A DNA stretch of 64,000 nt, taken from assembly GCA_963669155.1 (NCBI GenBank), contig OZ022583.1, positions 2,939,857 to 3,003,856 of the forward strand, written 5' to 3'. Made by a program: the position numbers and the translations under genes. A model generated the notes under the pieces. The model searched no databases and was not told where the DNA came from. It saw only the letters and a list, made by a program, of their open reading frames with translations. This DNA comes from Arbacia lixula. Lineage: Eukaryota; Echinodermata; Echinoidea; Arbacioida; Arbaciidae. Position 1 is the stretch's first letter. Each line of letters begins with the position of its first letter. This document shows positions 1,091 through 51,810 of the stretch, piece by piece.

Positions 1091-15435
<14,345 letters not shown>

Positions 15436-23560: not shown

Positions 23561-23571
23561 CCCCCCCTCCC

Positions 23572-23587
23572 TCTCTCTCTCTCTCTC

Positions 23588-23642
<55 letters not shown>

Positions 23643-23690
23643 ATTCTCCCTTTACTTAAACTTTTTGCACTCACTCTTTTTATCTTTGTC

Positions 23691-23762
<72 letters not shown>
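23572..23762 (+). repeat. Two (CT)n blocks
   Basis: Pure CT runs at about 23572-23638 and 23694-23762 flank the left edge of the proline-rich gene array. Another CT run is at 25654-25698 between array units. Confidence 0.9.
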
Positions 23763-23765
<3 letters not shown>

Positions 23766-23984: not shown

Positions 23985-24090
23985 TTCCCCACTAGGAGGT
24001 TCCGTCAATCACGCGCCTCTGCTTTTGATTGTTAGACAAGATTGTGACAAGACGAGGACCAATGAGAACACCAGTTCATAGTGCGCACGC
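23985..24090 (-). repeat. Weak fourth copy of the promoter-like block
   Basis: Contains TCAATCACGCG and GACCAATGAGAACACC, which align with TCAATCACG and GACCAATCAGAGGACC in the copy at 25247-25500. More diverged than the others and seen by eye only. Confidence 0.4.
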
Positions 24091-24689
24091 AACATTATGT
24101 GAGCTTTTCGAGGCAATAAAGGGAAGATGGAGAGTCAAGACAGTATAAGCATAATAAGCTACTGTGCTTATTCGTAAAGGTATCCGTGAACTTCTGAACG
24201 TATTACGTTGAAGAAAATAAAAGAGCTCAGTGACCCCCGTGAGAGCTGGTAGCAATGAGATTGAAATAAGGAATTAAATGCATGTATTTGTACATGTATA
24301 TATGTGTTTGACCGAGAGAGAGACCCTTTATTACCAGTTGCTTATTCAGGCTGTCATTTCTGTTGGCGAATTATGATTGTTCGGGAGTGCAAAGAATAAT
24401 GATAAGACTACAAGATTGTATAAATAATGAGAGTATGTGCGTAGATAGTAATAACAGAATGTGTATTTGAGAAAGAAGGGAAGTGTTATAGATAAGTAAT
24501 GGAACAGAACAAACACACGTATATGAAATTAGAAAGAAGGGAAGAAGACGTTGGATATCAAGATTTTTCTTACGCGTAGATATATTTGTTTAAATAGTAC
24601 GGGGAAATTAAGACAATAAAGATATATGAGTGTATGTACGGGAGAAAAAAGGTTTAAAGAGGTGAGCTGGAACGGAGCGAAGGAGGTGG

Positions 24690-24795
24690 CGGCAGCCGGA
24701 GGTGGTGACGATGGCGGTGTTGGTGGTAGCTGGTAGAAAGGTGTACACGCAACAGATGACGTTAAGGGTGTTGTAACATGTTGTGGCGACGGATT
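24690..24795 (-). pseudogene. Fragment of a second copy of the proline-rich ORF
   Basis: The minus-strand frame reads SPQHVTTP and then YQLPPTPPSSPPPAA, matching 26828-26912 of the intact ORF (QHVTTPVACKPSYQLPPTPPPSPPP). Sequence on both sides of the match is lost. Downstream DNA (24360-24580) also resembles the downstream flank of the intact copy (25705-25960), so this is a truncated duplicate. Confidence 0.7.
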
Positions 24796-25246
24796 CAATT
24801 GAACTTTGAACTTAGTTAATAAAGTTACTTAGTTAATAAAGACAAGTATACATTTTCAAGTGCACCAATTCAGTGATATTCAATGATTCCAATTCCGAAG
24901 ATGTATTCATTTTTTATATCAAAGTTCAATGCGCGTGCAGCAACTTTGATAATTGAAATTAGTTTGAATATAAATACGCAATGATATTTGGACAAACATT
25001 TAGTATCGTGTACATGTAACGTTCATGTATTTTAACCTGATTTGATTTTTTATTTAAAAATCAAAATGAACATCTGATCATCTACTTTACAAAACCAGAT
25101 CTCTGATCCAAAAAAGTCTACTCTAATCTCCTCCATGGACCATGCAAATTATTAGAAATATTTCTTATACATTTAGACTTTGACATATCCATGTAAAAGG
25201 CCGAAAGAATGCCTATTTTTTTAGCAGCCACCAACGTTAGCTAGGC

Positions 25247-25500
25247 TTCCATTCAATCACGACCGGTAAGACATCGTCAGCCACTAGGGTTTACGTGCGT
25301 GACGTATCCGGGTGACTATAGAGTAGATGATCGCTAATCATGAGCTAATCTTGACGAGAAGAGAAGATCAGACGTTTTTCTGATCCCTCCCGGTTTACTG
25401 CCCGCCGCCTGTCAACCTCAGGCATTCAGGCAGACTGACCAATCAGAGGACCGCAGTTCATTGTTCTGGTCTTGAACTAGACCTAAGAACATTTCCTTTA
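25247..25500 (-). repeat. Promoter-like block, duplicate copy A
   Basis: Shares, in order, TTCAATCACG, GTATCCGGGTGACTATAG, GATCCCTCCCGG, GCCCGCCGCCTGTCAA and GACCAATCAGAG with 29480-29700, and a subset with 27280-27370. On the minus strand it lies upstream of the gene fragment at 24690-24795. CCAAT is at 25439-25443. Confidence 0.7.
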
Positions 25501-25653
25501 CTGACGTTACGAGTTTTTATGTTTGATATTAGTGGAAATGATGAAGAAGAAATGTCGTTTATAGCAGCACATAGGTTAATTGTACACTGCCCATTTCCCT
25601 CTCTTACTTTTGCATGTACCTCCCCTAATCACACACCCTTTCTTTCCCAGCTC

Positions 25654-25655
25654 TC

Positions 25656-25698
<43 letters not shown>
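25654..25698 (+). repeat. (CT)n block inside the array
   Basis: CT run with TTTC interruptions between the duplicated units at 24.36-25.5 kb and 25.7-27.48 kb. Confidence 0.9.
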
Positions 25699-25700
<2 letters not shown>

Positions 25701-26098
25701 ATTTCTTGTGACGAATTTTGATTGTGAAGGAAAACTAAAGAATAAAGGCGATAGAGATATTTGAGAGTATGTGCAATATAGGAGTAACATAAAATGTGTA
25801 TAATAGAGACAGAAAGTATGAAACACATGGGAAAACACATAAAAAATGAAAGAAACATATCGATTGAAACGAAAGAAAGAAAGCGGAAGATTAGGATGCG
25901 GGCACAAAAATGACATGATATATGTTTGCGTTGTTGGATATCAAGATTCAGGAATGAGTATGATAATGTTTATATTCCAAGCGTTCACTCTCACTTTCAC
26001 AATACTCGCACTCTCATCTTTCGCGCATCCGTTCACTCATTTGAAACGAAACACTGAATAAACATATTCCACACACGTTTAAATTCAAGTTTGCAAGA

Positions 26099-26104
26099 TT
26101 TATT
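26099..26104 (-). terminator. Poly(A) signal of the proline-rich ORF
   Basis: AATAAA on the minus strand about 90 bp after the stop codon, with a second overlapping AATAAA just upstream. This completes a promoter-ORF-poly(A) unit of about 1.1 kb. Confidence 0.5.
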
Positions 26105-26190
26105 GAATAAATATATAGATATGGCAATATATTACATTCTGGCAACATGCTATTGATATGACTTTGTATGAGTTCATATAGATCCCTCGA

Positions 26191-27066
26191 TCACAAGGAG
26201 ACGACGTCGATGATGTCCTCTTCTTCTTCCTCTTCAGCTTCCTCAATCACCAGGCGGCGTGGTCGATGACTTGGCGGTTCTGTGTGGTTGTGGTGAGGAT
26301 AGATGCCGAATACTGGTGTGGCTGCAACATGATGTGGTAGCATGTTGAGGTAGTTGTATGGTCCTTGTTGGTAGACAGGGTACGGCGAACAGCAATACGG
26401 AGCAACCCCGCTGAGTATGGGCGGCAACCTGGGCCGGGCCACGAGGTACGGCGAGAACCGAGAAGCAACAATCCGGTAGCCAGTCATTGGTGAAACGAAC
26501 GGCAAGGCAGCGTCAGTATGGGACGTGATAACGGCCGGTGAGCCGGCGGCCGGAGGTGGTGACGATGGGGAGCGGCGCGCCACTGGGCTGCACGACGTAG
26601 GACTGGTGGTCTGCCCTACCCTAGACGGCTCCATGAACGGCAAGGCGGCGGTAGCATGGGACGTGATAACGGCCGGTGAGCCAGCGGCCGGAGATGGTGA
26701 CGATGGCGGCTGGCGCACCACTGGGCTGCACGACGTAGGACTGGTGGTCGGCCCTACCCTAGACGGCTCCATGAACGGCAAGGTGGCGGTAGCATGGGAC
26801 GTGATAACGGGCGGTGAGCCGGTAGCCGGAGGTGGTGACGGTGGCGGTGTTGGTGGTAGCTGGTAGGAAGGCTTACATGCAACGGGTGTTGTAACATGTT
26901 GTGACGACGGACTCCTCACCACTCGTTTTGCTGCTACACGACGTGGTGATGTTGTGCCGATCTTCCTGCATGTTGCAGCCAGCATGGCCAGAGGACTCGG
27001 CTTTCCGAGGTCGGTCGAATCAGCAGGCGGGAGGTGCAGATACTTGGATGTCGATACCTTAGGCAT
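26191..27066 (-). CDS. Unrecognised proline-rich single-exon ORF with 46-aa repeats
   Basis: The frame is open from 27237, but its first codon there is GTG and the frame crosses a TATA-like motif. I therefore start at the ATG at 27064-27066 (MPKVSTSKYLHLPP), giving 291 aa. Residues about 50-200 are Pro/Ser/Ala/Thr-rich and include a 46-residue repeat (period 138 bp) around PPPAAGSPAVITSHATAALP. Then come a Tyr/Pro/His-rich part (GIYPHHNHTEPPSHRPRR) and an acidic C-terminus (EEAEEEEEEDIIDVVSL). There is no signal peptide, membrane segment or known domain that I can see. A CCAAT box, a TATA-like box and an AATAAA bracket it, so it could be a compact intronless gene. A degenerate copy of part of it lies at 24690-24795. 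Function unknown. Confidence 0.5.
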   Translation of the reverse strand: MPKVSTSKYLHLPPADSTDLGKPSPLAMLAATCRKIGTTSPRRVAAKRVVRSPSSQHVTTPVACKPSYQLPPTPPPSPPPATGSPPVITSHATATLPFMEPSRVGPTTSPTSCSPVVRQPPSSPSPAAGSPAVITSHATAALPFMEPSRVGQTTSPTSCSPVARRSPSSPPPAAGSPAVITSHTDAALPFVSPMTGYRIVASRFSPYLVARPRLPPILSGVAPYCCSPYPVYQQGPYNYLNMLPHHVAATPVFGIYPHHNHTEPPSHRPRRLVIEEAEEEEEEDIIDVVSL

Positions 27067-27183
27067 TCTCGGGCTGTGAGTTGATAATGTAGCTGAGCAG
27101 CTGGTAATGAGCGTTGGTTGGGATGATGTGCTCGAAACGAGAGTAAGAGCATTAATAATGTCTTCACCGACATCGGCCAGCGC

Positions 27184-27339
27184 TTTATACCCTCTCATCT
27201 GCAGCCATGTCCGCCTCGCTAAAGTAGAGATGATCACTTCATTGAGCCTCAGAGATCACAGCTTTGTCAGATCTCCACCGCCTCGCCGCCCGAGCCATCC
27301 CTTAGTTGTCAACGCAAGCCGTCAGGTAGACCGACCAAT
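27184..27339 (-). promoter_or_regulatory. CCAAT and TATA-like promoter of the proline-rich ORF
   Basis: Read on the minus strand, ATTGG (inverted CCAAT, 27335-27339) is followed about 150 bp later by TATAAA (27184-27189), which lies about 120 bp before the chosen ATG. The block around the CCAAT box recurs at 25247-25500, 29480-29700 and, weaker, 23985-24090. Confidence 0.45.
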
Positions 27340-27479
27340 CAGCGGACCGCGTAGCCATTGTTCTCAACTTGACCGGGACATGATCAATGTTGCCACGGTG
27401 GACAATGCCACATTCACACGTATAATAGAATGCGGATACATATCCGTGAGTGTTCTGTTCTGGAATAATTTCAAACAAC

Positions 27480-28526
27480 CCGTCATATCTTAACTTAATT
27501 TGTACTCATATCACATTTGTTAAAGTCCGGTTGATGTAACCACTCGTCTCGCGCTTAATTTATCAAGTTTAACCAATATTTCAATAATCTCAATTTATAT
27601 TTCCCTCATCGTTTCCCGATTTACTTGTTGATGAATATAGTTTTTGTGGTGAGGTACATGCTAATGAAATTTATGCACTATCATCATGTGCATGTTTTGT
27701 TTTACATTTATAAATACTCTCTGGAGATCACGACCAGCTAAGTTTTACAGCTTTTGAAGGTCCCTTGTTTCCCGCCTATCTTTAGTTTGCATCAAATATT
27801 CTTATATATTGTGTTAGTATTATATGTACATCATTTTAAAAGGATGTTATTGTACTGAATAATGAAATGTGCTGATTCTGACAAATATAGACCGAGTTGA
27901 ACTTAATTTCATATCTTAAGATCCGATACTTAGTCCCAAAAGTATGATGAAATGTTGAAAACGCCCTTTTAATTGTACAAGGAATTGTACAAGGACCCCA
28001 AGGAAGAACAGCAGTATTTCATTAATACAGCTGAATTTGGGCTATCCTCCGTTTCTGATACTGTACATATGCTTCTTAACTTGTATACATTGTACAGTAT
28101 GTATTTTTGTCTTGATTCGGAAATAAATACAAACAATAACTCTGTTCGAATTATCAAATCGATCCGTTTTATGTTCCCATAGCTATAGATATCATCACCA
28201 TCGTTATCGTTGCTACGAATAACTTTTACCATCTCCTTCACATATATAGGCTAAGAATATCAAATTGTTGTTGTTATCAGCTTCTTTACAGTTATGGGCT
28301 TAGAAAAAAACACATATCTTTTCCCCTGCGCTATCAACTTGATCATGAATAATAACATTCACCGTTTGTTTAGAGTACAACTTTAAAGTGAAGCTTTCCC
28401 TTTTTGGAAATTTGAGGATGTTATTGATACATTGAACCACCAAGAGGCATTTTCATGCCTCAATTTTGACATTTTATTGAATTGCATTCAGAATACGCAA
28501 TGGAATTTGGACTTCTGTCTATCTAT
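27480..28526. other. Intergenic, AT-rich
   Basis: No gene or clear repeat recognised. It lies upstream (minus strand) of the proline-rich unit and next to the LINE fragment. Confidence 0.5.
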
Positions 28527-28869
28527 CTAGCCTATTTCTCTCCACTGTTGTAGGAATTCCTCATCATCATTTTTCCATTTTGATCCATCTTGTCCCATTC
28601 GTTTGCGTGTCACACTACCATACTCTCTAATAATATTTATCACCCATCCACGTCCTACTTTGCCTGCCTCTTCCTCTGGTGTTACCTCTGGGGATCCAGG
28701 CAGTTGATTTATGTGTCCATCGACCGTCTTTCCTCCCGGTCAGATGACTATCCCACCTCAATTTCTTCGATTTAATTTCCTGTTCTATGTCCCGTACTTT
28801 GGTTTTCCTTTTCAAATCCTGGTTTCTAACTATGTCCCTCTTTGTAACACCAAAAATAATTCTTTCCAT
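28527..28869 (-). mobile_element. LINE reverse-transcriptase 3' fragment
   Basis: The minus-strand frame has KVRDIEQEIKSKKLRWDSHL, then RKDGRWTHKSTAW and RGRGRQSRTWMGD. This is the C-terminal tail pattern of non-LTR reverse transcriptases (KWRWAGHVAR, RWT, RGRxxxRW). After a stop at about 28627 the reading continues one frame over as DDEEFLQQWREIG, the usual end of such proteins, so a 1-nt frameshift splits it. The 5' part, including the polymerase core, is absent: a dead 5'-truncated insertion. Confidence 0.8.
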
Positions 28870-29479
28870 TTTAACTTACATTAAATATATTATGCATGTA
28901 CCTTTTATTTACATGTATTTGAATGCAATATGAATTGAAATTTCTTTGAAACTTGTCACAAATTTTGCAATGAAGTTCATATCTTAGACCAAATGACATT
29001 ACTGTGAATCATAATCTCAGGTAGTTTTAAACGACAAATCATATGCACTTCATTCTCAGTGTGCATAACAGCGGTGTCCATTTTCTTCATTTGGGCCAGG
29101 TTCCAAACCCTTTCTATGCAATGCAAGAGACCAACTCTTCCCCCACCGCACGATGTTCTCAACATTATTATGTTGACAAAGCTAACATACTGACCTATGT
29201 GGTCGCTGTTTAGTTTTTAACATAGCCACATGTCTACACATTCCACAAAGCTTACGCCATTCTCGTCTGTGGGCCATGCGAATGATTGCAGATAATTGCA
29301 TACATTTAGACGACGACGTATCCACTTATGTGACGTGGACGAGCGCTCAATCTTAAACCTTTGAGTGTCACACAATGTACTGCTCATTGTGTTGTGTGTG
29401 TATTAATGGTGCATTTTACTTCAGAAGTGACAGGTTAAGGGTTAACCACCATTAATGATCGTAACTTTCTGCTGGGTTT

Positions 29480-29710
29480 CTATTCAATCACGCCTTAGTC
29501 TTTGTTGGTTACTATGCATGTATGGGGTTTATGCACGCGGCGTATCCGGGTGACTATAGGCGATCTTTATAAGAGAGCAGAAGATCAGAGGTTCTTTTGA
29601 TCCCTCCCGGCTCACCGCCCGCCGCCTGTCAAGCCTCGTCGAGGCCATCAGGTATACTGACCAATCAGAGTAGAGCAGTATATTGTTCTTGTCGTGAACG
29701 TGACAAGAAA
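29480..29710 (-). repeat. Promoter-like block, duplicate copy C
   Basis: Same ordered motifs as the block at 25247-25500. Read on the minus strand it has ATTGG (29661-29665) and TTATAAAG (TATAAA at 29566-29571), a good CCAAT-TATA pair. No matching ORF remains downstream on the minus strand, where a LINE fragment is found instead. Confidence 0.65.
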
Positions 29711-38600: not shown

Positions 38601-41600
38601 ATACATATATTGTACATGCAGATGTAGCTAGCGGGCTTGCATATTCTACTACTTTTTTTCTCCTTTTTAAAAAAAATGTTTTCCTTGAAATTGTCAGTTA
38701 CATTAAGATTCGCTATAACTCTGCCATTCCATCCCCACCCCCATCTGCTATTCTCTTTGCCATCTCTGTCTTCTCATGTGACCCTCTTTTGTGTTCCTCA
38801 TTCTCTGTTTTTCTTCTCATGCATGTGCATACTTCATTCCCATTTCCTTCTTTTCTCTCTTCTCTTCTCGACCTTTTTCTCATCTCTTTGTCTTCCTTTT
38901 TGTCTCGCCCACCGGAGGTGAAGGCGAGACTAAGGGATCCAAATGGCGTCCGTCCGTCGTCCGTCCGTCGTCCGTCCGTCGTCCGTCACAAATGTTAAAG
39001 TTTACCTGCAAGACTCTCTTATGATCCATAACTTCACATGGGTTGCTTGGATTACAACCTAACTTGGGTCATAGATGCACTGGGGGTACCTTCATGGTAT
39101 GGTGGTGTTGGAGGTCACAGGATAAGGTCAAAGGTCATTTGAGGTCATTCGTTAAAGTTTACCTGCAAGACTCTCTTTTGACAAATAACTTCACATAGGT
39201 TGCTTGGATTACAACCTAACTTGGGTCATAGATGCACTGGGGGTACCTTCATGTTATGGTGCTGTTGGAGGTCACAGGATAAGGTCAAAGGTCATTTGAG
39301 GTCATACGTTAAAGTTTACCTGCAAGACTCTCTTTTGACAAATAACTTCACATAGGTTGCTTGGATTACAACCTAACTTGGGTCATAGATGCACTGGGGG
39401 TACCTTCATGTTATGGTACCGTTGGAGGTCACAGGATAAGGTCTAAGGTCATTTGAGGTCATACGTTAAAGTTTACCTGCAAGACTCTCTTTTGACAAAT
39501 AACTTCACATGGGTTGCTTGGATTACAACCTAACTTGGGTCATAGATGCACTGGGGGTACCTTCATGTTATGGTGGCGTTGGAGGTCACAGATTAAGGTC
39601 AAAGGTCATTTGAGGTCATACGTTAAAGTTTACCTGCAAGACTCTCTTTTGACAAATAACTTCACATGGGTTGCTTGGATTACAACCTCACTTGGGTCAT
39701 AGATGCACTGGGGGTACCTTCATGTTATGGTACCGTTGGAGGTCACAGGATAAGGTCAAAGGTCATTTGAGGTCATACGTTAAAGTTTACTTGCAAGACT
39801 CTCTTATCACACATAACTCATCACATGTTGCTACAATGGCAATCAAACTTGGATGATGGATGCACTGGGGGCACCTGCATGTTATTGTGCTGTAAGAGGT
39901 CACATGATAAGGTCAAAGGTCATTTGAGGTCATACATTAAAGTTTACTTGCAAGACTCTTGGTGAAGGCTTCCTAACTTGTGCACAGAATTGTGTGAGCA
40001 TGTGTGAGCATTACTGATGTAGATTTAGGCAAACATTACTCATGCACATTTATGCAAATTTATTCAAAGTCACTATTTTGCACCTGATTTTGATGTTGTC
40101 TGTTTAAAGTTGCTTATTTGTTTGTTTCAGTTTTCTTTTGCGTAGCAACGGAGATCGCGATATTTCTGGTTATTTTCGCAAGTGGGCGAGACACAATATT
40201 GCTAATGCCTTGTTTCTTCCCGTCGACAGGTAAAGACGAGATTGATTCCAAGATTCAGAAGCCCGTCAGCCCTGCATATCCATCGATCCTTGAGAAGCAA
40301 CTAACAGGACCTCCACCATCGCAACCTCCATCATCAGCCTCACCTCAACCACGATATATTCAGCAAGCACACATTGCCCCACCCCCACTGCCTTCAGCCA
40401 CACAACCAGCCGCGTCCCTTCCCCCTGGAGTAGTCACTACCCCTGCGAACACTCCCCCAAACTCCTCGTCCATCATCCAGCATGCTTCGCGCTTCAGCAT
40501 TGGGAGTCACCCCCTGCCGCTGTCCTATCACCTCTACCCTCACGCTCACCCACAACAGCTGCACCAGCCGTATCTGCCTCAGCATCATCCGCCACCGGCC
40601 GCGCCGTCATCGCATCACCCCTCCCAACAACCACCAGCCCCACCACATCACCATGCGCTACCACTGCATCGGCCGCAGCTTCAGGAAAGAACTGAGCAAC
40701 AACATCCTCCGTCTACCACCACCACCACCACCAGTGCTCCCTCCCCCTCCCCCTCTCCTTCAGGAGCCCCTCCTAGTCACCCCGTCCCACACCCACTCCA
40801 CCAACTCCCCTCCCACCATGCCCCTCCACACCACGTGGTCCCCATCTCCAGCTCCTCCTCCTCCTCCTCCCACCTTGTCACGCCCAAGCAAGCCATGGAC
40901 CTGCTGCATCTACACGTAGCCGAAGCTCAAGGGAGGACCAAACAGCAGCAGCAGCAGGCCACCCTGTCCCCCGTGCCCACCTCCAGGGGGGCCATACCCC
41001 ACCCCGCACCCCACCCCAGCAACATGAGCCCCAGGCTAGTGCATCAGATCGTCAGTCATGACCAGTGGGTCGCTGGAGAGAGGGCATCCTCACCCAAACA
41101 ATCACCCTCGCTTAGCAAGCCTTCTGCAGAGAGTGACTCAAACGACTCTGCGTATGATGGCAGTGGCAAGGACAAAAGGTGAGTTTGCGTTCTTCTTTCT
41201 TTTTCGATACTACAATGGACCTAAACACAAAGCTTATAAATGATTTTACTGTAAATCATGTAATGAAGTACTGGACCACATTTTGACGATCCTAATGTTA
41301 TATCTGTATGCATCTTGATCTCTCTTACAACACTTATTACATTAAGCTGACTTTATATGCCCTGAATGTGGGATGTAATCAGTAGAAAAATGTCATATCA
41401 CCTGGAATTAGAAACAGTGTTTTAACCCTTTTTATGCCACTCTGTTGTCCTATGGGAACTTCAACCATGCATTAGTTGAGGAAAAATACACCAATAGCAT
41501 AAGTACGGGTGAAATAATGTACACGTATGGTCCACCTCTGCCGTATTTCACCCTTGAATGGTCTTTCTCTCTGATGTAATGTATGTGAAGTAAAGAGCAA

Positions 41601-44600
41601 CTTAGGACTGAACCTGTACATGCAGCTGATTCTACACTCCTTATTTCTTATTTCCAAACATTAAGCCCCCCCCCCCCCCCCTTCCACATACAGGTACATT
41701 CATGTGTTCATTTTTTTTAGCAACAAGTTTCTTTGCAAATAGCACACAATAGAGTATGCAATGTTTTGCTGAAATCCTTGTGCATGAGTGCATTTCCCCC
41801 TGTGACAGGGAGGTACATGTACATTGCATCTTTACAATAACTACATTAGCGTAATACAGTACATTCTTGAATGTGGTTCACCATTGCGTGGGAGAAGTGC
41901 GTATTGTTATTGTTGTGCAAGCGCTCATACGTGCATGTATGTGATGACAAGACACAGAGGCCGTGCCACATCCGCCTGTGACGTTTTGCACGGGGAAGTG
42001 TTGTGGTTGTATGGGAGTAACGGGGGGGAAGTGGCATTTCCTGTAGGAGTGCGTAGTAGTGTGGAAGCAAGGCAGGTTCTTCCTCTGTCACTCACTAAAA
42101 CACAGATTAGTCACTAACACATACAGTGTCAAGCGCTCGTTATCCATTGTATAGAATGTATGTTCCTAGGTTGCATACAGTACATTCATGCTGAAAAGGG
42201 TATTGCTAAAGACGTGAGAACTTTCACAAGTTACATTTTTCTCAGTTTCTCTGGAAACTTCAGAACTACACCCCAGATGTTTTGTGTTTTTACTTGTTTT
42301 CATTAGAAGTTCACTGGTAGTTGTCAACTTGTTTTACATTTTATTTTTAAGTTCTGAGCCATGGCTATTGCTAGAGGCGGGAGAACTTACAAAAGACACA
42401 CTTTTTGCTCTATCTCTGAATACTTCAGGGCTACATGTGCCCTAAATAGTTTGTGGATGTTTATAGGTACAGGTACATGTGTAGTTGTTATCTTGATGTG
42501 CATTTACATTGTAGTTCCAACTTCCAAGTCCGTAATCTATCCATTCTTGTAAACATTCAGGGCTTTTGCTAGCTACCATTAATGAATCCATGTGATGCAT
42601 TCCAGACACAAACATACTCAAGTGGCAAAATAGGCATGCATACAAACTTTTTTGGCAACATACTTGTGTGCAAACATCGAACCCTTTTCTGTGCCAATAA
42701 ATCTGTTTTGACGCCTGAGCAAAAGAAATCTTGGCAAGAGCGTGTATGCACAGGTACAATGCAAGTTACCCCCCCCCCCCCCCCCCCTCCTTCAGAAAAT
42801 GTGCGGATTGCTTGAGTCAGAGGTGTCAGCTTAGATCACCAGAGTGCACAGTTTGTGTCACCATTTACTTACTGTACATACAAAACTGCTAATTGACACG
42901 AGGGGTGCGCTCTACACATACTTTGTACTATGCGTGTGCATAATATCCTTGGAGCGCGGGAAGGAAGTTGTTTATCTGCTCACAGCAACTGGACATTTCA
43001 TTCTCAATCTAAACATTTCTAGTTAAATTTATCAAAATGACCTGCAGTCCCTTCCTTTCAAGTCTGGCGGCACTTGTGAATGTTTCTTTTTTAATGGAAG
43101 ATCGAAGCTGCAGGTTGGTCTGTTGGGTGAAATAGAGAGACACCCAGTGTCTGCCCTTGTGTGTTGATGCATCATGCAATATTGTAATTCAGTACTGTTG
43201 GACAGATTTACTTCTTAGACTTGGTCCATAGTCCATAATCCATGGAACTAGATGTGTCCTCAAAGATGTGTCAAAATTGCACTGACGTTTATTTACTCTG
43301 AAAAAAATGCTTTTGGAAAAATCAAGATCTGCATTATTCAATACTGTATGTTTGTGCCTTTGCATGTCTATGTATTGTTGTTAACTTGATGTTCATTTAA
43401 ATGTCATGTAAAGTCGTGCTTTATCAGGATGATTATACTCCCACATGTAGTGATACAGTAGCTTAAATGGCTTTATGGCTTAAGGCTAGTGAAGAAATGA
43501 GACTTCTGTTAGGCGCAGGAAATCTTGATCCGCTTTGGCATGAGGGGGTGACTGGAAGTTGTTCAATGAATAAATAGTGTCTATGATAGAGAATGATTAA
43601 TTTAAAATGTACCCTTTGAAGTACAGAAGGCTGCAGTTAAAAAAAACCCAATATCTACAGATCTACAGTATATAAAACAAGGTAATTGTACACACATACT
43701 TGTTATCATTCTTGTTATGGTTTTACAATCTAACTGAAGAGCCGTGCAAACAAAATATGCAGGTATTCAAGATATTGACATCCTTTTGAACATACATGTA
43801 GGTCATATTATTTTCGTAAAAGAAGTAGAGAAGGATGCCATATTGTGGTAATTGATATATTGAATATAACAATGAAAATGTTATGAATGAATCCTTTAGC
43901 ATACTGTGCATGCATGGGAGTGAAATGTTTTGAGAAAGGTTTTCAAATGTACATGTATAATTTGGAAAAATGGTTGATCAGAAGAAAAAAAATGGCCGAG
44001 CCACACAGAGAGTTCAACATTATGATGTACTGTAAGGTGCATGTAAAAGAACAATGTTAACAAGTTACAATGTTGGTGGTGCTTTTGAGTTTTTGTGATA
44101 TCATGAACTTCTATGAAAAATATGTGTAGGTGTAAGCTACTGGTATCAACAACATGTTATGAGGCACAGGAGCCAAGTTTGGTTGTCGCCTACTGGTCGG
44201 CAAAAACACTGGAACCCTGCATGAAAATCATTGGTGTTTGCTGGAGAAATTTGTGGGATTTGACATTGAGTCGGTCAACAAGTTCTGTAGAACTGTAGAA
44301 GTGATGATCCCACCATTACATGTAGGTCTCTGAATAAAAAGATGTTATTAGTACATGCATGAAATGCTAATGTGCATGCTGTATATTGTGTGATACTTGC
44401 TAATAAGTTTCTCTACATGCCCAAAATTTGATGTTTGATTGTTTCTTCTTTGCCCTTGTATCTCCTCTTGCAGAGCTGGTATCAGAGAAGTTCACAATAA
44501 GCTTGAGAAGAACAGGTAAGTAAGAATGCACAATAGAAAACAGATCATGGTCATGTGACCTACTGCAATTAAAGATAGTTTTTAGACCCAAATCACACCG

Positions 44601-45237
44601 CATCTTAGTTGCAATAGACCATTTTTTTTCTGTATGGAAATTTTTATGTACGTTTTTCAATCAATACATTACAAATGGTAACCTCAAAGCTTGTCCGCGT
44701 ATCAACAACTAATAGATTAAGAGTACGTTCCACTGATTGAAATTGAATTACAAAATACAGGTGAATGAAATAATGCATTGCTATGCAGTTACATGTTGAT
44801 GGAAATTTGTGCATACATAATGAAAATGGCTTTCTAAATGTAGTAGTAAGCCTAAAATGAGAGCTTATCTTGTAAGGAGTTGCGATCAGATAATTGATTT
44901 GAACATTACAATACTATACCTTTTGTACATCACACATTTCTTCGCTTATTCACCAGTATATCCACATGTTAAAACACACACTATGCCTTTTAATCATTCT
45001 GTGCTATCTGAATTTTAATCAGAATGAAAATGAGAACGATTCAGATAATCTGTTTTTCATTATGAGCTACCGGTAGCTGTACTGTATTTCAAACATTTTT
45101 TTGTCTGTTTTTGTTTCATGCAATAATAGACTCATATACGTTAAATGTCAAGTGAAAGGAAACTAGAGAATATGTTATGTGCTGTGACTCCAATCTTTTT
45201 TCTAGGTTGAAGTCTACTGTACATTCATCGCTTCTTG

Positions 45238-45289
<52 letters not shown>

Positions 45290-48200
45290 CTTTTTATCTC
45301 ACTCGCTGTTTCTCTCCCCCTTCTCCCTATTTCTTGTTCTCTTTTAGTTGTATATTATTCACTTAAAATGCAAACAATTGACAATCAATATATGATATAT
45401 GCAACCCTTCATTTCCAATATCAACAAAAGGATCAAACATGAAACAGTAAATTTACTGTATAAATTTAAGGACCAAGAAGGACACTACAAATCACTTGAA
45501 ATCAACAACAATGTAGTGAGAAAGGGTTAAATTATCTGACTATGCATATATTGATTTTTTTTTCTAGTTTAAATAGTTTCATTCTCATGCAAATATGTCA
45601 AGAGACTGAAGAAAAGCTTTCAGATTTGTTGGTCTTTGAAAGATTTGGTGCAATGCGAAGTTTTATCTGTGGGCTGAATTCAGGGAAAGTTAGATGAATA
45701 GTTGTTGTGGGAATAAATTTGAATACTAGAGGAGACTGAAACCATTATAATAATACAATCTAATGAAAGTTTGAGAGAAATCAGTCATATTGTAAGTTTT
45801 TAATTCATGGAAATCATTATTTGCTTTAAATTCTTATCATTAACCTTCTTCTAGTGCACATCCAAATGTCTGCCAAGCCATACTGCACAGAAGTTGTTCA
45901 TGTGATTGTGCAACCTACTGTATGAGACATTACTAAATGCAACTTGAGATTTACAAAGCAAGATAAAAGGGTTAATGATAACACTTTAACTCACATTCAA
46001 CTTATTATTTAAATACTCTATATATTATGTATGTTACATAATATTTTCTTATGACAGGCGTGCACACTTGAAAGAGTGTTTTGACAACCTACGGTTGGGC
46101 ATACCGAACATGGAGGATAAGAAATCCAAGACGTCCAATCTCAGCATACTCAGAGGAGCGCTGCGATACATCCAGGTAAACATCGTCGTTTCTTACCCCC
46201 CCCCCCCCCACCCCCACCTCTGTTTTGTAAGGTGTTGTTGCACATGGTGTGAGTGTGATGAAAGGAAAGAGGTTGTAGTTGGTAAACGCAATAGAAGTGG
46301 TGTCGTCATATTAGCATGTTGTCAAGACAATTGCCTCTAAACAAACTCACTCCAGTGAGAGGTTATGCGGTCCTTTATTGTCTATCGGGCTAGTGTCCAG
46401 CATTCCTAATCAAAGTTCCCGCTGTGATCACCGCTGCTTGTTCTACCCGCATTGTTTAGAGCCAGTTATCTTGACAGTAATGCTCAAAAGACGTCACACT
46501 TCGGTACTCTATGGCCCATATTCACAAGGGTGGTTACACTTGGACTGAATGTACTAAATGTAGACTTACTTCATGGGGTGCAAAATAAATCATTGGATGC
46601 TGTCACAAAATCAATGATTTTCATGACAGAATCACAACAAAGGGAGTGGTTTCAATTATTTGGTGTGATAAGTATGTTAAGCATTTTCCCAGATATGAAA
46701 CATATTCATGAGTAATATTTACAAATTCATGAGAGCCTTTCAATTTATACTTGGCTATGGTCAGTGTTCAACAGTTGTATCATCACATTGGTTGCAATGG
46801 AAAAGATGCATACCAATACATACATACGTTTGTACTGTGTTTATAACCTGCAATTGAAATTGTACAAAGTACATAAATGCATACTGTAGATGTATGTAAG
46901 AAGTATGTACACTGTACATGTACAGTACATGTACACCATAGAGTAGACATAACATATGCGTGTGTATGCATATAAACGTTTGTCCATTTTGCATAATTGT
47001 CTAAAAGTATGATGCCTGAGCTAAAAATACACAGCCCCCTCTCTCTCTCTCTTCTGTTTATCTGTTTCTCTTTGTACGCATGTGAATATTTTGAATTCCA
47101 TATCTCTACTTTTTTTCCCCTTTGTTTTGTCTTCGACTTCTTTTCCCTAATCTTTGCCCACTTGAATGAATGATCGTGTGTACATTGTATGTTTATGTGT
47201 GTGTCTTTCTCTTTTTGTTTCGGTGTCTTTTTAAATTCTCTCTCTCTCTGTTCTGTTTTTGTGGTGAGTTTGTGACCTCTCCCGTTCCAATCTATCATAT
47301 GGTCTTCCATAACTATTCCCACTCATTCGCATATGAATACAGGTACATCATCAGTCTGGGTCAGAAAATATAGGTTATTCACTGTGTATAAGTAAAGCCG
47401 TTGTGCGCAGCATGTCCCAGTTTTGCTGCCCTCTCAATTAAACTGGTCGTTGGAACATGCCTTGAGTACCTGTAAATGTACGTAGGAGTTGAGCTCTACA
47501 ATAGGTTTGATGTCAGATGTAATGCCATCACTCCTGTCAAGCACAAGTAATCTTGTCACCTGATTGGGACACAATACCTGCTTGTTTGTGTGTCTGTTCT
47601 GTGTCTAACCAGCTGTCAATTTTAGGTTAGAAGGGAACAAAATCCTGATAATGAGTTGAATTGGGTAAGATTTAAAAAAGCCAGAGATGTATTGATGTAT
47701 TTGTGCTTGTACATATTATGGTTGTAGTTTAATTATCACACATGTCAAAAGTTGTGATGTGATGAAATACAATGAAGTACTCAGTTGTTACACACTCTTG
47801 AAATAAAAGGAGATGTCAATTTTGCCACTTTACCATTTTAGGAGCAGTTCACACCCCTAATACAAATTTGTATTCATAAAATGCAGAGAAATACTGCTTG
47901 ATTAAACTATGAATAAATGATAAAATAACAGTTATTTGAAGAAGGACAGTAGGATCACTACACCCAGGGAAAAAATTCATTCAAAATTTTTGGGGGCTAC
48001 TTTTCAAGCACATTGGCAGATTTGGCTACAATTTGACATTGTGTCTATGGGAATTTTGAGGGCTCTTTTAAGCATTTCAGGGGTGAAATCATCCCACGCT
48101 CCCATTCATTTTTTCCTGTGACTACACCTAATATAATACAGGCACTGCTATGTTTGCAGATTGGGAAATTGAGAAGCCAACCCTCAATATTCTATTAAAG

Positions 48201-51200
48201 ACAGCCAGTCCCTTTTTCAGATCACCACAAAACCATCGAAACATTGGCAAAACATATAGAGAACTGTTAGCAAGCTCTATATTCACAATTTGAAACTGAT
48301 ACGTAGTGTAAAATTCAAATAATGCACATAAACAACGTCTGATTAATAGTCTTTACCTCAGGCTCTTAGCAGTTTTTGTTGAAATATCTGCTTTATTGAT
48401 TAATCTGTTTATTAAATTATAAAACGCATTATGAAAAAAAAATTGTTCTATGGAAGGAATCATCTCCAAAGCTTGGTAGTTACTCATAAAATTAGGATTT
48501 CACACACGCATAATAACCACATAGATACTGTAACAAAGACTAATACTTTTTTCGTGGTACGAAAAAAGTCGGTTTGAAATTTAACGGCTGAAATTTTTTA
48601 CATATACAGAAAGCTTCAACATGCTATATTCTTAGAAATGGTCTTGAATCACACTTTCTTCAATTTACGATCGTGATAGACGATTTCAAATTCTAAGCTT
48701 GCAAAAGGGACGGACAATCTTTAAAGGTCAAGTGCAAAGATCCATGTTCATTGAAAGGTCAAGTTCGGATCCTGGAAATATATCCTTAATATGCTAAACA
48801 ATTTTTTTGTGATACAGATTGGTGTTAGGTTTTTGCTAAAGCATGTTCACTGAATAGATTTTGTTCTTTTCTCTATATATTAAATATTCATTTATCTCTT
48901 CATTCAATAGTTTCTTTGCTTTCAGTCACACATTTTTTACAAATACATACATTGAGATATCTGTTTTTTGTGGGAACATTTTATTGTTATGCAGCTAGGA
49001 AGTGTTTTGCAATTTCTCTTTGTACTCTGTAACACATCTGTTTCACTTTTCATTTCTCCTTCGTGGTTGTGAAGAAACTATTTTTTTTTAAAGACAATGG
49101 CACTTCATAGTTCATTTACCCTTGATATGCCACTGAGGCATTGTTAAATCTTAAAATGTCATGTGTTTACTTTTTCACCATTAATGCACACAAATCCCAT
49201 AGAGTGACATTTTATCTGGTACAGAAAGTGTTAGTACATGTAATCCTATGTAGCAGTAGTTTGTCTGGCACTGAAGGAGTAAATGTACACGTTTTTATTT
49301 CTTATTGAAAGGTGCTGAACCGCAAGGAGAGAGAGTTGGAGCACGAGCTGGACCGACTGGTCAGACAGAAGATTGAGAACCAGCAGCGCCTTCACCTGCT
49401 CAAGATCAAGAACGGCATGTCCACCAGTGAGACGGTCAAGCTGCCCTCTGAGAGGGACGAGGAGGAGGAAGAGGAGGACGATGCCCATGATCGCCTGGTG
49501 GTCGTAGAGAAAATGGACATTGATGTCGAGGCTCATGACGATGATAAGAAGAGTTACGATGAGGATGATCAGGCATCGACATCAACGGCTTCAGGTAATA
49601 AAGCAAGTGGTTGGTTGTGACTGAATGCTAAAAACAATTCTATGGATTCTATGCTGTGAAGTGTGGTAATTTTCCATACCGCATGTCGGAAAAAGTTACC
49701 CAGAATGTATCCTACAGCTAAGTCTGAATTTTGTTTGCAGTCAAGTCTGCTTCCGGCCTCGTATGAGACTAGTAGCTGAAATGATAGCAAAAAAGATTTG
49801 TTGGTCGATGCTTAATGCATAATGGGACATACTTGTCCTATGCAGAAATTGTGATTTGAATAAAACCTAAAAAATTGTAGTTCATGTTATCAGCTGCCTA
49901 TAACCGAAACATGTACATGTAGAAATGATATGTCATTATGTGATCATTTTATTCATGTTCGTCATTTGCTTGACTCTGAATCCTTTGCAGAAGCGGAAGA
50001 GGAGGAGAGGAAGTCACTGGTCCATTCCCGTTCTCAGTCTCCACTCCATCACCCTGTGACATCACACTTGATCCATGCCACCTACCCTCTCCCTGGAGTC
50101 TCAACCTCCTACCAGCAGTCCTTAGCTGGCTTCCACGCTGTCAGTCACGCTGCTAGCAGCAAACCCACCTCGGTGCCATACACAAACGCTCCTCCGCACC
50201 ACGTGATCGGGCTGAGCCGCTCGTCCAGTGAGGCGATGCTTCAGTATCAGGTCGCGAGAGACTCACAGCCACCGCCGGGCTCAGAGCTTGGGAGGGTGTC
50301 GCACAGACTGGACGTGGAAGGTTTGAGAGTGTGGCATGATTCAGCACCCACTGGACCACCTCAGGGTGTCAATCCAAGGACTACATGCTTACAGATGACC
50401 CAGGATAATGTGTCCACAGTGCTGCAGAGCGTCGCTAGTCAGATCTCACCTACCAGGTTGGAACCGCCACCAGCGGTAGTGACTCAGCCGTCTGGCGCTA
50501 CAGCAGGAAGCCTGACGCGGCAGACGGTTAGCCAACTCCTCGGGAAGCAACCGATGGCCAGGCAGCCGGTCAGACGGCAGGTGTCGCTGTCCCAGCAGCC
50601 GGTCATCCATTCTGCCCATCAAGCCTCCCGCCAGCTGCTGCCCAGGATCATGAACACCTCTCCACCAGTCAGGCTGGGCTTCAGCCCCACCACCCAGCCG
50701 AGCTTGACAGCTCCACCCAAGCCGGTCATCACGGTAGGAATCAACTCACTCCTTGCACAACCGTCTGTCATACAAACTGCCAGCACTCATAAAACTGTCA
50801 TTTCCAATGGGCTAGTACCGACTTCTGCAGCCGAACTGAGCACGGTAGCACAGTCTGGTGCTGGTGCTGGGCCCAGACCCCCACCGCCTGCACTGACGGC
50901 TTCATCCCCCTTGACAGCGCCCATAGCATCCCCCCTTGCAGCCCCCTATTCGACCCCCCTCACTGCCCCCCTCACATCCCCCCTGACAGCCCCTGTCTTG
51001 ACAAACCCACTCTCCACCACTGTGCTAGGAACGACGGAAGCTGCAGCAGCAGCAGTGTCTAAGAGCTTGATGACAGCATCTGTCATCACCCAGACATTGC
51101 CTGTGATGTCTCACAGCCCGTTCATCTCCCCCATCGCCCTCCAATCTCCAGCCACGGCTGGTGCCTCTCTCCTCTTCACCCACCCAGCCTCCAGCTACAT

Positions 51201-51810
51201 TGGCCTGCGCCCCTCCATGATCACCCAGCCCTTCATCGGGTCCTTCGCAGCCACTCGCCCTTCCCAAATCCAGGTAGCAAGCTCTGCCCAGGTGACCCCT
51301 TCCTCTGCCATCACCCAGCCGCTGGTTCACCCGTCTGTCCAACCCATCGAAGCCCTCAACAACTCCGCCATCTCCCTGGCCCTGGCACAAGCAGCACTCC
51401 CCAAGCACCTGCCTCAGCTCCCCGCCGCGGGCTTCCCTGGTGCTGTCAACATCAGTGGCCTGCCAGCAAGTGCATTAATGCCCAGCACCCTCCCTGGTAC
51501 GAGGCCTCCCTTCACCCCCAGCATCCCCTCCACCTTACCCCCGCCAACCCCCATCTCCACCCCCGCCCCAGCGCAGGTTAAACCCAAATCCTCCTCCTCC
51601 CCCGTCTCATCAAAAGGCAAAGGGTCACGGACAAAGCACAGTAAGAGCCTCAACGGTAAGACCGAGATCCAGATCACTACCTCCAAGATTGCAGAGACCA
51701 TGGCCAACCTGGTCAATTCCCAGGTCATGGCCAAGAATGGACACCCTACAAACACAGTCAACACCAGAACTAGTCAGCAGTCTGTGGTCGTCAAGTTAAA
51801 GCATGTTTGA
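35563..51810 (+). CDS. MNT: MAX-binding protein MNT, bHLH-zipper transcriptional repressor (6 exons)
   Basis: Exons: 35563-35641, 40230-41178, 44474-44515, 46058-46175, 49312-49594, 49991-51810 (TGA). All borders are AG/GT and the phases join to 3291 nt, about 1096 aa. MNT dimerises with MAX, binds CACGTG E-boxes and recruits SIN3-HDAC to oppose MYC in the nucleus. Order of parts: SIN3-interaction helix (MNIDTLLEAA, residues 1-13); a Pro/His/Ser-rich region (28-340); basic region REVHNKLEKNRRAHLK and helix-loop-helix (about 345-396); leucine zipper (397-432); an acidic stretch ending in DDQASTSTAS (about 480-490), which matches vertebrate MNT; then a 600-residue Pro/Ser/Thr/Ala-rich tail. Vertebrate MNT is about 580-590 aa, so this protein is nearly twice as long. 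The start is fixed by an in-frame TAA at 35548-35550. Confidence 0.94.
35709..35775 (+). repeat. (GT)n in MNT intron 1
   Basis: Imperfect GT repeat with TTTG and TATG interruptions, about 70 bp after the exon 1 donor. Confidence 0.9.
38901..40212 (+). mobile_element. GTCTCGCCCAC-ended element, copy 2, abutting MNT exon 2
   Basis: Starts TGTCTCGCCCACCGGAGG with a small hairpin (GTCTCGCC/GGCGAGAC), then a CCGTC minisatellite, then six tandem units of 157 bp (junction TACCTGCAAG or TACTTGCAAG at 39004, 39160, 39317, 39474, 39631, 39788, 39945). About 250 bp of unique sequence follow, ending GTGGGCGAGACA (40182-40193). Homology with copy 1 continues to about 40212, only 17 bp before MNT exon 2. 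The short frame reading MFVSVFFCVATEIA lies in the unique part of both copies and is probably not a gene. Confidence 0.78.
39004..39960 (+). repeat. 157-bp tandem repeat (six units)
   Basis: Junction spacings are 156 and then five times 157 bp. Each unit contains AGGTCA/TGACCT half-site-like words (GGTCAAAGGTCATTTGAGGTCA), so the array carries many direct repeats of the AGGTCA nuclear-receptor half-site. Units are very similar in the middle and more diverged at the right end. Confidence 0.85.
40230..41178 (+). CDS. MNT: MNT exon 2, proline/histidine-rich region
   Basis: Begins KDEIDSK after the split Gly codon and ends KDKR just before the bHLH. It holds long Pro, His, Ser and Gln runs, including CAG repeats at about 40945-40957 and CTCCT-type serine codons at about 40850-40870. 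The open frame runs upstream of 40230 only because the adjacent repeat happens to be open. Vertebrate MNT also has a proline-rich region here. Confidence 0.88.
44474..46175 (+). CDS. MNT: MNT exons 3 and 4, bHLH domain
   Basis: Exon 3 (44474-44515) codes for AGIREVHNKLEKNR and exon 4 (46058-46175) for RAHLKECFDNLRLGIPN, continuing to RGALRYIQ. The basic region has the His, Glu and Arg that read CACGTG in MYC/MAX/MNT proteins. The intron interrupts the basic region between two arginines, with phase 2 on both sides. Confidence 0.95.
45240..45285 (+). repeat. (CT)n in MNT intron 3
   Basis: CT run about 770 bp upstream of exon 4. Confidence 0.9.
46500..46650 (+). repeat. Interspersed repeat related to 4620-4760
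   Basis: The plus strand here matches the reverse complement of 4620-4760: TTTATTTTG, AGTCTACATT, ACCACCCTTGTGAA and AAAATCATTGATTTT recur in order. The 4620-4760 copy flanks the GTCTCGCC element, so this is either an older neighbouring repeat or part of a longer element. The plus reading (WPIFTRVV) parallels WPVFTRVV of the other copy, but no intact protein exists. Confidence 0.6.
48195..48728 (+). mobile_element. TTAA-bounded MITE, copy 2
   Basis: Same element as 18464-19005, with scattered substitutions and small indels; terminal inverted repeats TTAAAGACAGCCAGTCCC and TTAAAGATTGTCCGTCCC. Located in MNT intron 4. The TTAA borders would suit a piggyBac-like mobiliser, but the terminal bases are not the classical piggyBac ends. 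Confidence 0.82.
49312..49594 (+). CDS. MNT: MNT exon 5, leucine zipper and acidic DDQASTSTAS motif
   Basis: Starts VLNRKERELEHELDRLV, in register with helix 2 of the bHLH, with leucines at heptad spacing and then QQRLHLL. A run of Glu/Asp follows, then DEDDQASTSTAS. The last motif also follows the zipper in vertebrate MNT (by recall), which separates this gene from MXD, MAX and MLX. Confidence 0.94.
49991..51810 (+). CDS. MNT: MNT exon 6, long Pro/Ser/Thr/Ala-rich tail
   Basis: Single 1820-nt exon coding about 606 residues with no recognised domain. It begins with an acidic EAEEEE patch and has a degenerate PLTAP/SPLTAP pentapeptide array at about 50900-51000. It ends VVVKLKHV. Low-complexity tails are also seen in vertebrate MNT, but shorter. 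The tail looks disordered. Confidence 0.9.

Follow-up and report, generated by a model that had tools for sequence, protein, structure and literature searches.

A family of apparently Sp5-derived genes without zinc fingers in the genome of the sea urchin Arbacia lixula

A compact gene that lies among similar promoter-like blocks in the window (the whole stretch of 64,000 nucleotides of Arbacia lixula DNA analysed here) raises the question of where such a gene comes from and whether its product might still be in use. The gene, which we call W, occupies an open frame of 354 codons from stop to stop, a length that was reached by none of 1000 shuffles of positions 26001-27400 (the longest had 335), and translation from the ATG at 27066 yields 291 amino acids. 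An alternative start at 27198 (335 amino acids) is disfavoured because the TATA box at 27189 would fall inside the extended frame and because the relatives of W described below start at the homologue of 27066. Rfam and tRNA scans were empty, a search of solved structures gave incidental weak matches only (best E 0.032), and a viral origin was rejected, with no relative of W among viral contigs. The features of the locus are collected in Table 1.

Table 1. Positions of gene W, its parts and the surrounding units in the window
Feature	Position	Strand	Remark
Gene W, 291-aa Pro/Ser-rich protein with SP box, without Btd box or zinc fingers	26191..27066	-	
SP box SPLAMLAATCRKIG, W residues 24-37	26956..26997	-	12/14 to published Sp2 box
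LPPTPPPS	26836..26859	-	fits the FBW7 phosphodegron pattern
138-bp in-frame repeats, 2.5 copies, in W linker	26497..26847	-	
FGIYPHH, W counterpart of Sp5 FGLYPHH (shortly before Btd box)	26290..26310	-	
C-terminal acidic-hydrophobic tail EEEEDIIDVVSL of W	26194..26229	-	fits SUMO-interacting-motif consensus
Poly(A) signal AATAAA, 89 bases beyond last codon of W	26099..26104	-	
TATA box TATAAAG (-123 from ATG at 27066)	27183..27189	-	
CCAAT box (ATTGG on minus strand, -273 from ATG)	27335..27342	-	
Promoter block A, homologous to blocks B, C and 13 cluster-gene promoters	27200..27395	-	
Unit A 3' flank, alike to unit B 3' flank	25705..25960	-	
Promoter block B (decayed unit)	25249..25489	-	sequence match to blocks A, C
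Coding-sequence remnant, unit B	24690..24796	-	
Unit B 3' flank	24360..24580	-	
Promoter block C (decayed unit; no ORF remnant found)	29480..29709	-	match to blocks A, B
Extra unit-C match to unit-B 25113-25191	29247..29324	-	sequence comparison

The initial annotation counted four copies of the block, all in the same orientation. Three of these (A, B and C) are secure: none of 1000 dinucleotide shuffles matched the Smith-Waterman score of any pair, and the ungapped identities are 137/181 for A-B, 178/215 for B-C and 121/171 for A-C. The fourth, at 23985-24090, did not stand, in that its score against block B was reached by 9/1000 and 4/500 shuffles under one scoring and by 36/500 and 13/500 under two others, its scores against blocks C and A were reached by 96/1000 and 842/1000 respectively, and the best z against 13 promoters of related genes was 1.8 (100 letter shuffles each). 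The match there is weak and inconsistent, and the array has three secure copies. The reported likeness of the 3' flanks of units A and B was borne out (0/500 shuffles; 135 of 180 positions identical), as was the claim that a full single-exon ORF persists in one unit and a fragment of it in one other. The fragment in unit B (89/99 identical) aligns without gaps to 12 of 13 related genes and has four codons that are missing from W; no ORF remnants were found in unit C or at the claimed fourth unit, and a search of 23-30.5 kb with 13 related proteins recovered, besides W, only the unit-B fragment. CT runs are present at 23567-23765 and 25651-25697. When the genome was searched with block B (one query, E up to 0.001, counts being lower bounds), only blocks B and C were returned, that is, at least two places in the genome and not the many dispersed copies of a transposable element, which speaks against the genome-wide transposon that had been named as an alternative. 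The description of the array as local duplication and later decay of a small single-exon gene that carries its own promoter still fits.

The statement that no family could be recognised has to be given up, since the protein looks like a zinc-finger-less derivative of Sp5. The SP box of W is identical in all 14 residues to that of the Sp5 gene of the same genome, and a match as good as that to the published Sp2 box (PMC4368557, PMC2833205) would be expected 2e-8 times in six frames; the consensus for the box is given as SPLALLAATCSK/RIG/E in PMC2833205. Measured against the Sp family, W has the SP box but neither a Btd box nor the three C-terminal C2H2 zinc fingers. The Btd box (CxCPxC), which reads CRCPNC in the host Sp5, is absent from W, from all 13 proteins of a related cluster and from two more divergent relatives, L032 and L033; two CRCPQC strings elsewhere in frames of the window and two matches in cluster DNA all lie outside family proteins. 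A zinc-finger pattern that matches Sp5 three times has no match in any of these same proteins, and Pfam, which gives three zinc-finger stretches in Sp5 as a positive control, gave none in W, L032, L033 and the two cluster proteins scanned. Six-frame pattern scans for a zinc finger elsewhere in the window were also negative, as were Pfam scans of some of its frames.

The fact that the SP box of Sp genes is normally followed by zinc fingers might suggest that W is only the SP-box exon of a longer gene, spliced to a distant zinc-finger exon. In the host Sp5, however, SP box, Btd box, fingers and tail all share one open frame, an Sp5-like tail followed by a stop is already in place in W and 12 of the 13 cluster genes, and no zinc finger was found by Pfam in three frames of the 15 kb downstream of W or by pattern in the 120-kb cluster region. 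We regard this as the least probable of the explanations weighed here.

The birth and death of copies that had been proposed for the array is seen on a larger scale beyond the window. A cluster of 84 kb, located 10.9 Mb from W on the same contig, holds 13 near-full-length relatives and two tail fragments. A pattern search of the whole genome (607 Mb) for the SP box returned 16 boxes (reversed control, 0), of which one each belongs to an Sp1-4-, an Sp5- and an Sp6-9-like gene and the other 13 to genes that are zinc-finger-less as judged from the genomic DNA retrieved around each. The family of W has at least 14 copies in the Arbacia lixula genome and is apparently Sp5-derived, the copy number being a lower bound drawn from this pattern search and the 120-kb cluster region. 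The coding part is a single exon in W and the cluster genes; L032 and L033 are zinc-finger-less genes with a predicted intron. The poly(A) signal is found in W and 12/13 cluster genes.

Comparison with the cluster also gives a meaning to the block. Block A lies within the 400 bp upstream of W, and this stretch aligns with the corresponding upstream DNA of each of the 13 cluster genes (z 24.6-38.5); blocks B and C do so more weakly (z 6.0-10.2 and 7.4-12.8). All 13 genes have a TATA box, at -78 to -121, and 12 have ATTGG at -236 to -281. What had been called a promoter-like block is the proximal CCAAT/TATA promoter of the gene family.

Traces of the route from Sp5 to W can be read from both the protein and the gene structure. 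W and three cluster proteins match Sp5 just before the Btd box (0-4 of 2000 shuffles as high) and again at the tail (2-11 of 2000). The missing block is thus flanked by Sp5-like sequence on either side, which makes an internal loss of the Btd box and zinc fingers from an Sp5-like protein probable. L032 shows no match to Sp5 ahead of the Btd box (449/2000) and only a weak one at the tail (116/2000). The host Sp5 ends in DSEDEIVDVTSE. The consensus of the SUMO-interacting motif is a core of hhXh or hXhh with acidic flanks (PMC8616421), and under this loose consensus cores can be assigned as IIDV in W, IVDV in Sp5 and IDVV in L032, the consensus being absent from L033. Counterparts of LPPTPPPS occur in Sp5, L032, L033 and all 13 cluster genes. 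In Sp5, L032 and L033 an acceptor AG is followed by CT(T/C)CC, and their candidate first exons, which are predicted, end in LQ followed by GT. W and the cluster genes read straight through this site, with the predicted intron of their relatives exactly absent, and the absence of the intron relative to these predicted exons suggests that W and the cluster genes descend from a retrocopy ancestor. Any poly(A) tract or target-site duplication left by such a retrocopy would have been obscured by the duplications that followed.

Whether such copies are retained for a function can be judged in part from substitution rates (NG86, with 11 of the 13 cluster genes included), with the reservation that gene conversion within the cluster can distort dN/dS. 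Within the cluster, the ratio is 0.18 for residues 1-37, 0.87 for the middle and 0.13 for the last 12 residues; between W and the cluster the corresponding values are 0.13, 0.78 and 0.22, and the ratio for the whole gene is 0.67-0.69. Values as low as those of the N-terminus were found in 0 of 5000 random column sets, and as low as those of the tail in 46 and 142 of 5000; when the comparison is with contiguous windows of equal length, the counts are 18 and 31 for the N-terminus and 295 and 652 for the tail (each of 5000). The strongest constraint falls on the first 30 residues; taken by itself, the SP box gives 0.33 and 0.35 on few changes, and columns 31-45, which contain the end of the SP box, reach 1.78 in the cluster. 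No purifying selection was seen within the 138-bp repeats of W (2.5 synonymous and 8.5 non-synonymous changes between the first two), a region that is a gap in all 11 aligned cluster genes, or in the coding fragment shared by units A and B (2 synonymous, 9 non-synonymous). Purifying selection thus appears to act on the first 37 residues and, with less certainty, on the tail, and the middle of the protein is by these estimates near neutral. That both ends of the protein would be kept by selection suggests regulators without DNA binding of their own.

This pattern of selection already disfavours the view that the genes are functionless Sp5 pseudogenes, a view that could otherwise draw on the decayed units of the array, the changed or broken C-terminus of 2 of the 13 cluster genes, the two tail fragments and the near-neutral middle. 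W and 12 of the 13 cluster genes are moreover open from MPKVSTSK to the IDVVSL end (K05 has changed residues before the end), their promoters are laid out alike and the poly(A) signal is largely kept, and we consider a set of mere pseudogenes improbable. Even more so is a fast-diversifying immune family of the SpTransformer kind, whose changes in copy number would be driven by GA repeats at the borders of units and whose repetitive middle would be the functional part. The small clustered genes, the internal repeats of W, the fast middle, the CT runs between units of the window and the 24 GA/CT runs of at least 16 bp listed in the 120-kb cluster region are of the kind that this scenario calls for, and SpTrf genes have GA repeats on their flanks (PMC8634487); the constraint, however, lies at the protein ends and not in the middle, and the coding part is Sp5-like and in one exon, as against two exons in SpTrf genes according to the same source.

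The reading that we prefer, to which we assign a probability of about 0.6, is that W belongs to a retained family of Sp5 paralogues that lack DNA binding and work by contacts with other proteins, probably to tune Sp5 or the partners of Sp5. An Sp5 paralogue would have lost its Btd box and three zinc fingers internally, leaving the N-terminus with the SP box, the LPPTPP motif and the tail. Family membership, the lack of the DNA-binding part, the shared CCAAT/TATA promoter and tandem amplification with decay are seen in the sequence itself. The proteins, if made and nuclear, may dispense with DNA binding and work through SP-box partners and, by way of the tail, through SUMO; the most likely outcome would be competition with, or modulation of, Sp5 or other Sp factors in a short-lived and dose-dependent manner. 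PMC2833205 describes the SP box as a conserved stretch of unknown function in the Sp family, so that competition for SP-box partners is something that we infer. A more specific version, which we hold only tentatively, is that a multi-copy set of intronless genes of this kind provides proteins that act on Sp5, an effector of the Wnt pathway in axis patterning, as a short-lived, dosage-tunable brake or as a tethered partner, with selection keeping the SP-box end and the SUMO-binding tail.

An unlikely but still appreciable alternative is that the family proteins are not competitors and instead would join NF-Y as tethered cofactors at CCAAT promoters, their own included, so that they might be autoregulated. 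A CCAAT box is similarly placed in the promoters of W and 12 of the 13 cluster genes, which fits this idea, although CCAAT boxes are common in promoters and the ancestry of the family is apparently of the Sp5 and not the Sp2 type. In mouse Sp2, it is the N-terminal, SP-box-bearing region, and not the zinc fingers, that recruits the protein to NF-Y-bound promoters, residues 28-93 (SP box included) being required for chromatin binding and the fingers dispensable (PMC4368557). That part of Sp2 is, however, glutamine-rich, basic and far longer than the SP box, and the same paper leaves open the role of the box itself in recruitment.

Should the brake-or-partner version of the preferred reading be correct, the SP box and its N-terminal neighbours would constitute an autonomous interaction module. 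Descriptions of the Sp family centre on its zinc fingers, and a natural family that separates the SP box from the fingers, with the box and its N-terminal neighbours apparently under selection, would open the function of the box to direct tests; no natural zinc-finger-less Sp5 family was found in the open-licence papers searched. If the family proteins interfere with Sp5, they would add a new layer to the Wnt/Sp5 circuit, which sea urchin embryos need for removal of the anterior neuroectoderm network from the equatorial ectoderm (PMC12550998).

Among known systems, Sp5 itself (of the Sp5-9 group of Sp/KLF zinc-finger factors) shares with the W family a predicted first-exon motif ending in LQ, the SP box, the LPPTPP motif, an FG(L/I/V)YPHH-like segment before the Btd box and an EIVDVTS/DIIDVVS C-terminal tail, and differs in having the Btd box, the fingers, the intron and one copy as against at least 14. 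Id proteins are likewise relatives of transcription factors that retain the interaction part without the DNA-binding part; they keep a known dimerisation domain, whereas the SP box of the W family is not known as one. The SpTransformer (Sp185/333) clusters of sea urchins resemble the family in their small clustered genes, GA repeats and local instability, and differ in having two exons and in encoding immune proteins (PMC8634487); a sequence relation is not expected. A further comparison is with Sp2 deprived of its zinc fingers in mouse cells, in which the N-terminal part with the SP box can still act at promoter sites shared with NF-Y (PMC4368557); that deletion is artificial and was made in a glutamine-rich factor, whereas the W family is natural and apparently of the Sp5 type.

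The minus-strand gene of unit A (27066-26191, here called W) encodes an SP box, SPLAMLAATCRKIG, that agrees at 12 of 14 positions with the published box, against a chance expectation of 2e-8 over all six reading frames of the window, where the next-best matches reach seven positions. The box is given as SPLALLAATCSKIG for Sp2 (PMC4368557) and, in its family form, as SPLALLAATCSK/RIG/E (PMC2833205). Both a Btd box and a zinc finger were sought in the W protein, and neither was found.

The initial annotation recognised no family for this gene, a view that has to be revised. The host genome (607 Mb, with the window in contig C8) contains the pattern PLAxLAATC at 16 places and the reversed pattern at none. 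Genes of Sp make-up are listed in the table below; no zinc finger was found in the fetched DNA of the remaining 13 places, which comprise W, ten genes at C8:13.867-13.951 Mb, L003/L032 on C1 and L015/L033 at C8 23.755 Mb. Searched at the protein level, the 120-kb cluster region yielded 13 near-full-length genes and two tail fragments; these family copy numbers are lower bounds from the search of one genome. The cluster (C8:13.866-13.951 Mb) consists of two arms, with five plus-strand genes followed by eight minus-strand genes, and the two tail fragments are lone stretches of 21 residues. All 13 cluster proteins start with MPKVSTSKYLQLPS, and 12 of the genes are open through to the IDVVSL end, including K05 with its altered C-terminal part, while K12 is truncated by a frame change. 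W shares 60-63% identity with the other 11 genes. In-frame 138-bp repeats occupy its fast-evolving linker (26497-26847), where the 11 aligned cluster genes are gapped.

Because W and host Sp5 agree at 24 of 37 N-terminal residues and match at a common LPPTPP motif, in the segment directly before the Btd box (FGIYPHH in W, FGLYPHH in Sp5; 4/2000 shuffles as good) and at the extreme C-terminus (EEEEDIIDVVSL in W, DSEDEIVDVTSE in Sp5; 6/2000), the part missing from W would be an internal segment that carries the Btd box and fingers. Shuffles were as good in 0-2/2000 cases for the pre-Btd segment of three cluster proteins against Sp5, and in 2-11/2000 for their C-termini. Between L032 and Sp5 there is no match ahead of the Btd box (449/2000) and only a weak one at the tail (116/2000); the N-terminus of L032 is near that of the cluster (23/32). 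Sp5, L032 and L033 have a splice acceptor exactly upstream of the LP codons and a predicted first exon upstream that ends in LQ before GT; W and the cluster genes are continuous at that position, without an intron. This suggests that the intronless genes descend from a processed copy that later underwent tandem duplication; L032 is likely an intron-bearing relative. Since pS is 0.356 between W and the cluster and 0.113 within the cluster, W is, by this measure of divergence, an older branch.

In all 13 cluster genes a TATA box lies 78-121 bases upstream of the ATG. Twelve have ATTGG (CCAAT reversed) between -236 and -281, and twelve have a poly(A) signal within 300 bases downstream; the corresponding positions for W are -123, -273 and +89. 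The 400 bp upstream of W, including block A, align with the upstream regions of all 13 cluster genes (z 24.6-38.5), in keeping with the earlier description of the repeated block as promoter-like. Blocks B and C score lower (z 6.0-12.8), and 23985-24090 aligns with none of the 13 (best z 1.8; 100 letter shuffles in each comparison). The W product is likely to have 291 rather than 335 residues: translation of the cluster genes begins at the counterpart of 27066, and the longer reading places the TATA box within its first codons.

Repeated blocks of the window and Sp-type loci of the host genome
Feature	Position	Orientation or make-up	Basis
Block A	27200-27395	same orientation as B and C	pairwise alignment against shuffles
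Block B	25249-25489	same orientation as A and C	pairwise alignment against shuffles
Block C	29480-29709	same orientation as A and B	pairwise alignment against shuffles
L016		Sp6-9 make-up	Btd box and fingers
L018		Sp5 make-up	Btd box and three fingers
L017/L035		Sp1-4 make-up	glutamine-rich, Btd box within 10-kb stretch

Three homologous copies of the block are borne out, with pairwise scores reached by 0/1000 shuffles and identities of 137/181 (A-B), 178/215 (B-C) and 121/171 (A-C). The fourth copy proposed in the initial annotation, 23985-24090, is weak at best, as its scores were reached by 9/1000 shuffles against B, 96/1000 against C and 842/1000 against A; three scorings against B gave 4/500, 13/500 and 36/500. 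The matching downstream flanks and the decay of the units that it described were both recovered: units A and B have homologous 3' flanks, the full gene is present in A, a coding remnant (24690-24796) persists in B, and a search for one in C found none. B and C match further at 25113-25191 and 29247-29324. The unit-B fragment is 89/99 identical and better preserved than the block (Fisher p 0.004) or the flank (Fisher p 0.003), with 9 non-synonymous and 2 synonymous changes. Because it aligns without gaps to 12 of the 13 cluster genes and has four codons that W lacks, unit B is more than a damaged version of W.

The window is DNA of animal type: its first 15 kb contain a minus-strand DUF4042/HEAT gene, and a plus-strand helix-loop-helix exon near 46.06 kb is flanked by two long proline/serine-rich open frames (40094-51810, plus strand), a layout that we take to be reminiscent of an MNT-type gene.

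NG86 estimates of dN/dS for 11 of the 13 cluster genes (K05 and K12 left out) were 0.18 across residues 1-37, 0.87 in the middle part and 0.13 over the last 12 residues; the W-versus-cluster values were 0.13, 0.78 and 0.22. Whole-gene values were moderate (0.69 and 0.67), and the SP box alone, with few changes, gave 0.33 and 0.35. When columns were taken 15 at a time, the lowest values fell in the first 30 (cluster 0.06 and 0.18; W 0.16 and 0.05), and the third step reached 1.78 (cluster) and 0.90 (W). Random column sets were as low as the N-terminus in 0/5000 cases and as the tail in 46 and 142/5000. The tail carries the weaker signal, since contiguous windows were as low in 295 and 652/5000 cases, as against 18 and 31/5000 for the N-terminus. 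Inside W alone, tests for purifying selection saw none.

With its fingers absent, such a protein should be unable to read DNA. The LPPTPPPS motif of W, which has counterparts in Sp5, L032, L033 and all 13 cluster genes, fits the FBW7 phosphodegron pattern. The tail fits the hhXh/hXhh consensus with acidic neighbours given for SUMO-interacting motifs (PMC8616421). L033 (C8:23749001-23759000), the second of the divergent SP-box genes without zinc fingers, has the predicted first exon MATKSTEYLQ; it retains LPPTPPPS and lacks such a tail. The parts retained in W are the SP box, a phosphodegron-like motif and a SUMO-interacting-motif-like tail. Family proteins might alternatively be tethered to NF-Y at CCAAT promoters, as is shown for the finger-less N-terminus of Sp2 (PMC4368557). 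We regard as the likeliest mechanism that a short-lived protein would share the partners of Sp5 and thereby tune Sp5, which sea urchin embryos are reported to require for clearing the anterior neuroectoderm network (PMC12550998).

At the Sp1-4 locus, no zinc finger was seen in the 10-kb stretch, of which 3878 bases read N. Its Btd-box exon (L035:1-824; C20:14156001-14156824) seemingly occurs in at least five tandem copies, with a unit of 156-178 bp and five CTCPNC matches, and may represent a true exon duplication or an effect of assembly. A 157-bp tandem repeat, adjoined by the same 25-bp and GACGGAC repeats, is present at two places of the window in opposite orientation (5077-5564 and 38994-39959) and recurs next to this gene. 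The host's three genes of Sp make-up equal in number those reported for S. purpuratus, and three has been proposed as the ancestral number (PMC3087555).
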